64,000 bases of DNA from Methylococcus sp. Mc7 (lineage in GTDB: Bacteria > Pseudomonadota > Gammaproteobacteria > Methylococcales > Methylococcaceae): assembly GCF_019285515.1 (NCBI RefSeq), contig NZ_CP079095.1, positions 3,132,501-3,196,500 on the forward strand. Direction: 5' to 3'. Under the pieces are notes generated by a model. That model saw only the letters and a program-made list of their open reading frames with translations. It had not been told where the DNA came from and did not search any database. Numbering within the stretch: position 1 is the stretch's first letter; each line of letters starts with the position of its first letter. Below, piece after piece: positions 3,867 through 49,598 of this stretch. The translations under genes were made by a program, and so were the position numbers.

Positions 3867-3952
3867 CCTAAGTTTTTGATCTAAAAATACATGTTTCTTG
3901 GCTCGAATTGTGCTTAACGATCATGGCGATCAGCCGGCCCGGGATGATGACA

Positions 3953-4197
3953 AATCGGCAGGAAGGCCGATTGACAGGTCCCGTCCTTGGGACCTGCCCT
4001 CCGGGCCATGCTCCGCATGTTCAAATTTGCTCCCTGCAAATTTGTGCACGCTTTGCGCCCGAAGGGTGCGATACAGGGAGGTATCGCATGAGCGCCGCTG
4101 CTCGCCATGATCGTTCCCCTCATCCCCGGCCCTTTCATGCCGGGCTCTCCTGCCCGGCCCCATTCGGGGCAATGCAAATCTGTTCCCGACAGATTTG
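3953..4197. repeat. Dense array of short hairpins with a conserved TCC-rich loop
   Basis: At least seven perfect stem-loops occur in 245 bases: 3953-3972, 3975-3996, 4007-4019, 4022-4044 (stem CAAATTTGC, loop TCCCT), 4067-4088 (stem TGCGATAC, loop AGGGAG), 4139-4158 (stem GCCGGGC, loop TCTCCT) and 4175-4197 (stem CAAATCTGT, loop TCCCG). Segments 3975-4044 and 4139-4197 share one plan: hairpin with TCCT loop, short CCC/GGG hairpin, then hairpin with TCCCT or TCCCG loop. A third copy lies at 43309-43367. The interval holds no convincing gene. Confidence 0.7.
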
Positions 4198-4292
4198 TCC
4201 CAGAGGGAGAAGGGAGTAAAGGTGCTGCGACTTTCACGTAAACCTCATCGGAGCGCGGCTCATTCCGTGCGCGGCATTCGGATACAAACACC

Positions 4293-43257: not shown

Positions 43258-43285
43258 GAAGGCGCGACCGAAGCTCGTAATGAGG

Positions 43286-43687
43286 TCATTCCGGCAGGGA
43301 GTGCCGGACCAATCCGCCGGGAGCGGATTGGCACTGGCCCGAAGGGTGCCGGGCAGGACAGCCCGGCATGAACCCAGGTTCCACGGACGGACTCGCCAGA
43401 ATTGGCCAGAGATCTCGCCACTCAGGATTGGCGCGTTCAATCAGGTTAATTTTCGCGCCACGAGTCCACTTCTTGATCTGTTTCTCGCGGAGAATCGCGC
43501 TCTCCATGCGTTCATGAACCTCGTACCAGACCAGTTCATGGACGCCATATCGCTTGGTAAATCCGTCGGCCAGTTCGTTTCGATGCTGATACACGCGGCG
43601 GATCAGATCGGAAGTCACGCCTACATACAGGGTGCCGTTACGTTTGCTGGCGAGGAGATAGACGCAGGGTTGTTTTGTCTGAGTCGT
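43286..43687 (-). pseudogene. GIY-YIG nuclease-like ORF lacking a normal start codon
   Basis: The frame reads PCVYLLASKRNGTLYVGVTSDL, with VYLLAS and LYVGVTSDLIRR matching the small GIY-YIG endonuclease family, then GVHELVWYE, AILREKQIKKW and NLIERANPEWRDLW. Family members start a few residues before VYLLAS, but here no ATG, GTG or TTG exists between the upstream stop and that motif; an ACG at 43685-43687 sits where the ATG is expected. The C-terminal 30 residues are encoded by the hairpin repeat. It may be inactive or use a non-standard start. Confidence 0.6.
43290..43367 (-). repeat. Multi-hairpin repeat at the 3' end of the GIY-YIG ORF
   Basis: On the minus strand the order is hairpin 43348-43367 (stem GCCGGGC, loop TGTCCT), short hairpin 43338-43346 (CCC/GGG), hairpin 43309-43331 (stem CCAATCCGC, loop TCCCG) and hairpin 43290-43308 (stem TCCGGCA, loop CTCCC). 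The first three parts align with the copy at 4139-4197; the 43309-43331 stem differs from its counterpart at three positions, all compensated on the opposite arm. Confidence 0.7.
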
Positions 43688-43724
43688 CTGTGCGGCCTGC
43701 CCGTGCGAACCTCCCTGTCACTGG

Positions 43725-43747
43725 GTTCCGGCATTCCCTGCCGGAAC
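43725..43747. repeat. REP-like palindrome
   Basis: A perfect hairpin with stem GTTCCGGCA and loop TTCCC, followed by CGACGG. It lies upstream of the GIY-YIG ORF in inverted orientation relative to the hairpin at 43290-43308, so the ORF is bracketed. The same palindrome recurs at 49572-49594. Confidence 0.75.
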
Positions 43748-43790
43748 GACGGTCAATGCAACTGGGAGACCGAATCCGGTCTCGCCGTAG

Positions 43791-49497: not shown

Positions 49498-49598
49498 CCG
49501 TCATACCGGCAGGGACTGCCGGTATCCAGGCCACAAGGACGTGTACGGCTGTCGCCATCCCTGGCTTCTGGGTTCCGGCATTCCCTGCCGGAACGACG
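49498..49598. repeat. Inverted pair of REP-like palindromes
   Basis: Two hairpins of the same family face each other: 49503-49525 (stem ATACCGGCA, loop GGGAC) and 49572-49594 (stem GTTCCGGCA, loop TTCCC), each with CGTC at the outside and CCAG at the inside. The arrangement is like a BIME. It lies in the 347-base interval between the two halves of the glycosyltransferase locus. Confidence 0.7.

Follow-up and report, generated by a model that had tools for sequence, protein, structure and literature searches.

CGTC-REPs, which include the dRS3 repeats of Neisseria and the RPE-4 and RPE-6 repeats of Rickettsia, are short palindromic sequences with a stem of 8–9 bp, a loop of 4–5 nt, a CGTC (or TGTC/CCTC) tag and a CCA-like tail; some are intragenic, and they 'seem lacking a dedicated transposase' (Di Nocera et al. 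2013, PMC3733652). The same source describes GTAG REPs, which are hairpin repeats too and go with RAYT (Y1) transposases that act on single-stranded REP DNA. Rickettsia palindromic elements (RPEs), as characterized in PMC10969869, are around 150 bp long, carry a conserved peptide and insert in frame into unrelated genes. BoxC, a short structured repeat of Escherichia coli, is given as 56 bp long with 22–32 copies (Cozzuto et al. 2008, PMC2267715).

Here we describe a repeat unit, termed the module, that consists of 63–78 bp and up to four hairpins (h1–h4) placed end to end. Like CGTC-REPs, it is short, palindromic, partly intragenic and has no known transposase; however, a CGTC-REP is a single tagged hairpin, whereas the module is untagged, holds several hairpins and itself inserts into CGTC-REPs. 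In contrast to GTAG REPs, the module has no GTAG end, and none of 20 Y1 loci was flanked by modules on both sides. With RPEs it shares insertion in frame, seen at 11 of 11 coding sites of a BREX-type operon, and it differs, in a comparison by description, in its smaller size, its end-to-end hairpins and its lack of a fixed frame. Identity with BoxC is doubtful, again by description only: a BLAST search with the module from the E. coli rrnB operon found a median of 2 and a maximum of 9 places per matching genome, against 22–32 copies for BoxC. Mini-elements derived from IS200/IS605 have hairpin ends, cause no target duplication, use a short preferred target and possibly excise without a scar. 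The module resembles such single-strand elements in its hairpin ends, its lack of target duplication, its preferred target and, possibly, excision without a scar, but differs from the mini-elements in that no Y1 partner was found and in the hairpins that fill the whole unit. Identity with a MITE was rejected, as no terminal inverted repeat was seen and there is no duplication beyond one ambiguous A. The module is thus a short palindromic mobile repeat with a distinct architecture. Our preferred reading, to which we assign a probability of roughly 0.6, is that it represents a family of non-autonomous mobile DNA elements that are moved as folded single-stranded DNA by an enzyme acting in trans.

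We analysed a stretch of 64,000 nt (the window) from the Methylococcus sp. Mc7 genome, which is a single contig of 4,003,396 bp. A first-pass annotation of the window had marked hairpins at 3975–4044, 4139–4197 and 43309–43367; all are present at these positions and all are parts of one and the same module (Table 1). At the module start, which is of the ACAAA type, stands h1 (A-CAAATTCGC-CGGGA-GCGAATTTG), followed by the short hairpin h2 (for example, CAGCC-GTCA-GGCTG), h3 (for example, CCCC-GAA-GGGG) and h4 (NNNNTCC-AGGGAT-GGANNNN), after which 1–2 bases close the unit; the 63-nt form is a module without h2. The common plan proposed for the three segments is therefore real, except that the 'CA-rich spacer' included in it holds, at 3974–4045, an extra hairpin (CATGC-GGA-GCATG). 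Also borne out was the threefold compensated difference between the hairpins at 4175–4197 and 43309–43331, which read CAAATCTGT/ACAGATTTG and CCAATCCGC/GCGGATTGG, respectively, on the same strand and have the identical loop CGGGA. The minus-strand module at 3974–4045 is nested in a plus-strand module, and locus L038 holds the outer module without the inner one. Carriers of about 330 bp similar to the one that holds three of the window modules were found in loci L035, L036 and L037, and a shorter one in L038.

Table 1. Positions of modules, CGTC-REPs and associated features in the window
Feature	Position	Strand	Remarks
Carrier, ~330 bp, TAACG...CGTTA-like ends, holds three modules	3915–4240	.	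Right end degenerate; right edge approximate
Outer module	3950–4090 (parts 3950–3972 and 4046–4090)	+	Interrupted by inner module; uninterrupted in locus L038
Inner module, 72 nt, four hairpins	3974–4045	-	One-base ambiguity at ends
Inner-module hairpins	h1 4022–4044; h2 CATGC-GGA-GCATG; h3 GCCC-GGA-GGGC; h4 3975–3996	-	
Third module, short 63-nt form lacking h2	4136–4198	-	
CGTC-type REP hairpin, 3′ tail interrupted by fourth module	43285–43307	+	By eye
Fourth module, short 63-nt form lacking h2	43308–43370	+	Inside CGTC-type REP tail, CCGG^AACCCAG
GIY-YIG nuclease-domain frame (PF01541, residues 11–85)	43345–43699	-	3′ end runs into module
CGTC-tagged REP, other side of GIY-YIG gene	43721–43751	-	Tag search
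CGTC-tagged REP, identical to 43721–43751	49568–49598	-	Tag search

The loops of the outer hairpins h1 and h4 are conserved and of NGGA types, with GGA present in both, and those of the inner hairpins are often GNA or GNNA, loops of unusual stability in DNA. Counted without a chance control, h2 has a GNA or GNNA loop in 62 of the 83 modules that possess it (30 modules lack h2 and 3 were excluded), and h3 has a GNA loop in 89 of 113. When six modules were folded as single-stranded DNA, the z-scores ranged from -5.0 to -7.1; h1 and h4 formed in all six and the complete set of four hairpins in three, with h2 missing from two 63-nt copies and h3 from the copy of E. coli O157. Across the window there are 30 perfect hairpins with a stem of at least 8 bp, 12 of which, read from the list, have GGA or TCC in the loop.

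Further copies in the genome, which the interpretation in the first-pass annotation required, were found in number, as were copies in its relatives. Model R1, built from the four window copies, gave 96 matches in the source genome at E ≤ 10, and model R2, built from 20 long copies, gave 77 at E ≤ 0.1, the E-values of both models being rough. Counting the source genome in each case, R1 matched 37 of 61 near genomes (E ≤ 1e-3), and R2 matched 106 of the 276 class genomes (E ≤ 1e-4), or 87 of 216 genera, as well as 45 of the 299 genomes of a phylum sample (E ≤ 1e-6), other classes included; only 16–17 candidates were scored per genome in the class and phylum searches. The modules read in 16 of 19 class loci (the other three lie near contig ends) and in 7 phylum loci all start with AC and all show the hairpin plan. 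In other collections, a typed consensus was found in 12 plasmid records, all from Pantoea, and in 2 records of a phage collection, and a 27-nt pattern matched 2 viral contigs; a record of Salmonella houtenae and a plasmid from Pantoea likewise carry modules. Tandem arrays occur as well: six copies in 72-bp steps occupy the start of nuoG, ahead of its iron–sulphur domains (L240, C1:3570601–3571032), and nine modules in steps of about 75 bp were found in a genome of another class (L319:898–1574). The first-pass annotation had missed the mobility of the repeat, its build of up to four hairpins, its frequent intragenic position and its spread far beyond the Methylococcaceae.

The window gave no Rfam match at gathering level, and no Rfam family fits the module; weak hits to sX7 and DUF3268 were rejected as an identity because their scores lie far below the cut-offs. 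On 18 other loci, Rfam matched only tRNAs and group II introns. One of the intron matches, in L311, overlaps a module, and several modules lie around and apparently inside this intron. The repeat literature within reach of our searches does not describe the module.

Matches to R2 are clustered in the source genome, with 12 in 15.5 kb, whereas in 2,000 trials with 64 copies placed at random no stretch of 16 kb received more than 6. The cluster coincides with an operon for PglZ, SNF2 helicase, DNA methylase and DUF6079 proteins, by reading a BREX-type anti-phage set, and 11 modules lie inside four of its long open frames. The orthologous operon of M. capsulatus Texas (L071) lacks all 11 modules and has no R2 match, in a genome with 13 module matches elsewhere. 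Measured against L071, the inserts are 75 bp at eight sites, 72 bp at two and a net 78 bp at one messy site. A Thiobacillus operon (L072) is empty at the 10 comparable sites, and a Tepidimonas operon (L073) lacks all 11 modules by length, its emptiness being less telling because that genome has no match at all. The existence of such empty sites, here and between two E. coli strains (see below), shows that the modules were inserted. Also relative to M. capsulatus Texas, around 1.3 kb of extra DNA lies between the DUF6079 and methylase genes (L032, 13548–14923). A second island of the source genome, 31 kb long, holds eight R2 matches, one of which lies within another module.

Insertion is precise, occurs in both orientations and places the module between S (mostly G) and A, the preferred target being G^A: among 116 distinct flanks from 150 rows, the base to the left of the module was G in 81, C in 31, A in 2 and T in 2. 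At the empty sites of the BREX operon and E. coli, a single ambiguous A is the most that could count as a target duplication. Modules have entered intergenic DNA, genes, other repeats (three sit at one identical point of CGTC-REP tails) and other copies of the module, as in the window when compared with L038 and at L033:14946–15017. Some single-strand transposons show a replication-strand bias; with the origin set at dnaA, none was apparent here (36 of 64 modules, after omission of 13 of the 77: five array copies, two tandem copies, five opposite-strand composites and one weak match). Insertion into functional tRNA genes was tested in the joined flanks of 15 loci, where no tRNA spans the junction. 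By reading, the modules in L301, L302 and L316 lie in tRNA-like 3′ (T-arm) fragments beside intact genes, and the module of E. coli rrnB (L330:426–535) lies in an apparent partial 5S 3′ end, again beside the intact gene.

All 11 coding insertions in the BREX operon leave the frame open, with seven modules in sense and four in antisense orientation and all three phases represented. An apparent breakage of the PglZ frame was rejected, as the same stop is present in the L071 operon and is thus the natural gene end. This pattern, together with a depletion of stop triplets, of which the six frames hold 121 where shuffles give 210 ± 13, is what would be expected of selfish coding DNA that, in the manner of RPEs, persists mainly through in-frame insertion into genes. 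Many copies are intergenic, however, one E. coli copy is 71 bp long and not a multiple of three, and stops are absent from all six frames in only 38 of 116 modules, so that we consider persistence through coding insertion somewhat unlikely as the main explanation. A non-autonomous element moved as folded single-stranded DNA remains the reading that we prefer.

In E. coli K-12, a module (R2, 52 bits) lies at 4171838–4171910 of NC_000913.3, downstream of the 5S rRNA gene rrfB in the rrnB spacer, a site that we take to be the spacer between terminators T1 and T2. Its flanks, GAGTAGG and AAACTGCCAGGCATCAAAT, resemble the 3′ terminus of the 5S gene that immediately precedes it. Most of a 401-bp K-12 stretch was found in one place in 2,509 of 5,426 genomes, and a longer segment that includes the module is missing in some strains (for example, 4/4); the typed consensus was matched in part by 447 of the 5,426. 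Between panC and rpnC, the O157:H7 strain PV15-279 carries a module that strain N96 lacks, the difference being a clean insertion of 71 bp. Sequence around this module (L329:230–450) resembles, by reading, the module-adjacent sequence in L323 and L327, and what the three loci share is perhaps another interspersed repeat serving as a target.

Among 80 related BREX loci, R2 detected six modules, four of which are in L100, a Halieaceae metagenome-assembled genome (MAG). Three of the L100 modules occupy the same sites in the same orientation as in the source genome, and each is nearest to its own counterpart among the eight 75-nt modules there, with 5, 10 and 1 mismatches of 75. In a tree of the segments between modules, the source operon groups with the module-free L130 (support 1.0); L071–L073 are near it and L100 falls outside (support 1.0). 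At site 6125, the source operon agrees with module-free relatives on both sides as far as the module boundary. At site 3914, this holds for the left flank, and the right flank is unlike all others. At site 7946, the flanks resemble L100, and sharing at this site can be explained by local recombination. Because the modules are common to the distant L100 and absent from closer operons, sites 6125 and 3914 suggest repeated scarless loss or site-directed gain, two sites being a thin basis and L100 a MAG.

We quantified the compensation of stem changes in two alignments. In A4 (20 copies), 76 cells were changed on both sides compared with 22.5 ± 3.7 in shuffles, 91.5% of cells were paired compared with at most 47.1% when partners were slid, and a one-sided change was found in only 4 of 402 cells. 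In A5 (150 matches, 142 distinct), 724 cells were doubly changed compared with 211 ± 17 in shuffles, and 92.3% were paired compared with at most 47.2% when slid, although A5 was fitted to the model structure and its paired share therefore leans upward. The covariation that the first-pass annotation had read from two hairpins thus extends to the further copies, with doubly changed cells far above the shuffles. Its conclusion that compensation implies selection is too narrow, since templated repair of palindromes can alter both arms together. Passive repeats whose stems are kept matched by such repair at replication forks, with no selection at all, would fit the scarcity of one-sided intermediates, as expected from one-step copying between arms, and two compensated pairs at the shared BREX sites, which account for four of the 16 letters that differ between the source operon and L100. 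The remaining letters there lie in loops or are uncompensated (both by reading), which includes most of the stem differences. Moreover, among eight rrn-type copies retrieved from E. coli, three different single changes were seen (one shared by two strains), and none is compensated. Repair also leaves the conserved loops, the fixed order of hairpins and the precise insertion unexplained, and we judge it an unlikely source of the compensation.

The first-pass annotation had left the choice between RNA and single-stranded DNA. We favour DNA because G·T makes up only 38 of 2,566 standard pairs in the modules of A5 (1.5%), compared with 30 of 469 pairs (6.4%) in 21 tRNAs from the fetched loci, because modules lie in genes in both orientations and because no Rfam family fits. 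A structured RNA that acts as a CsrA/RsmA-type binding array or as mRNA-stability hairpins, is selected as RNA and is spread by recombination would account for GGA in the loops of h1 and h4, for the very strong covariation and for the position of the K-12 copy downstream of a 5S rRNA gene. It is difficult to reconcile with the seven sense and four antisense modules in BREX genes, a G·T share about four times below that of tRNAs, the absence of a CsrB/Rsm-type Rfam match in the window and 18 loci, the clean insertions that mark mobility and h2 loops that are not of the GNRA type, such as GTCA and GACA. We therefore regard an RNA function as very unlikely. The low G·T share and the two orientations favour a non-autonomous DNA element with hairpins important for its movement, probably in single-stranded form.

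A RAYT/Y1 transposase was rejected as a linked partner of the module: searches with R1 and R2 found no module at 19 of 20 Y1 loci and a one-sided module at the other. The 20 loci were picked from matches, are mainly short RAYT-like frames and include 7 from the source genome, which has 11 Y1 matches. No recurrent gene family was found near modules either; among 1,471 stop-to-stop frames of at least 90 amino acids from 93 loci, the 14 largest clusters, judged by eye, are translated modules or chance neighbours.

The palindromes at 43725, 49503 and 49572, which had been linked to the module through their loop, do share a GGGA loop with it but are distinct from it: those at 43725 and 49572 have the defining traits of CGTC-REPs, and the one at 49503 was not picked up by the tag script. 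The module itself was rejected as a CGTC-tagged REP, having neither the tag nor a CCA-like tail. Inverted CGTC-REPs stand on both sides of the gene at 13 of 23 short-frame GIY-YIG loci of the family found in the window (10 by script and L195, L197 and the window by reading), compared with 0 of 11 loci of other GIY-YIG families (one cut by a contig end) and 0 of 6 UvrC loci. The 13 are the window at 43285–43751, L195, L197–L203, L206, L207, L209 and L211. A single-strand-specific family of GIY-YIG nucleases reportedly acts on Neisseria repeats. This nuclease family, the flanking of the genes by CGTC-REPs and the (A)NGGA(T) loop common to both repeats would suit a module that is a compound offshoot of CGTC-REPs and is moved by the same enzyme, with the small REP-flanked GIY-YIG nuclease as the candidate. 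Yet the module lacks the tag and tail, a strong module was found in only 3 of the 40 GIY-YIG loci searched, and some genomes with modules, such as G005 (one contig) and G023 (a draft) with 27 and 47 R1 matches, show only a GIY-YIG frame of UvrC length. Descent from CGTC-REPs with a shared enzyme is, in our view, improbable.

Taken together, the retention of the fold and loops, the free choice of stem letters, the mostly Watson–Crick pairing of changes and the precise insertion in either orientation fit a mobile element of folded single-stranded DNA. Movement would proceed via a folded single-stranded intermediate, and the enzyme supplied in trans would recognize the loops (NGGA in h1 and h4) and the hairpin shapes, not the letters of the stems. 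In copies that still move, stem changes would be kept mainly if compensated; resident copies do acquire uncompensated changes. More weakly, the modules that two BREX operons have in common, and that are missing from closer, module-free operons, lead us to infer either scarless excision or insertion aimed at particular sites. More tentatively still, the module could be a minimal mobile hairpin DNA found throughout the Gammaproteobacteria, read by fold and loop, entering and leaving without a scar or homing to its sites by a single-strand route, with K-12 carrying a fossil; expression vectors based on rrnB T1–T2 would presumably carry the fossil too.

The module adds a widespread repeat family undescribed in Rfam or in the repeat papers compared. 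Part of the rrnB terminator spacer of E. coli, a sequence used in many vectors, can be assigned to it. A single anti-phage operon provides a case of 11 in-frame insertions. The clean empty sites, the natural polymorphism in E. coli and the same-site insertions in BREX operons can be used to study how such repeats move and, if excision is scarless, a single-strand mechanism of mobility would be testable in laboratory E. coli.
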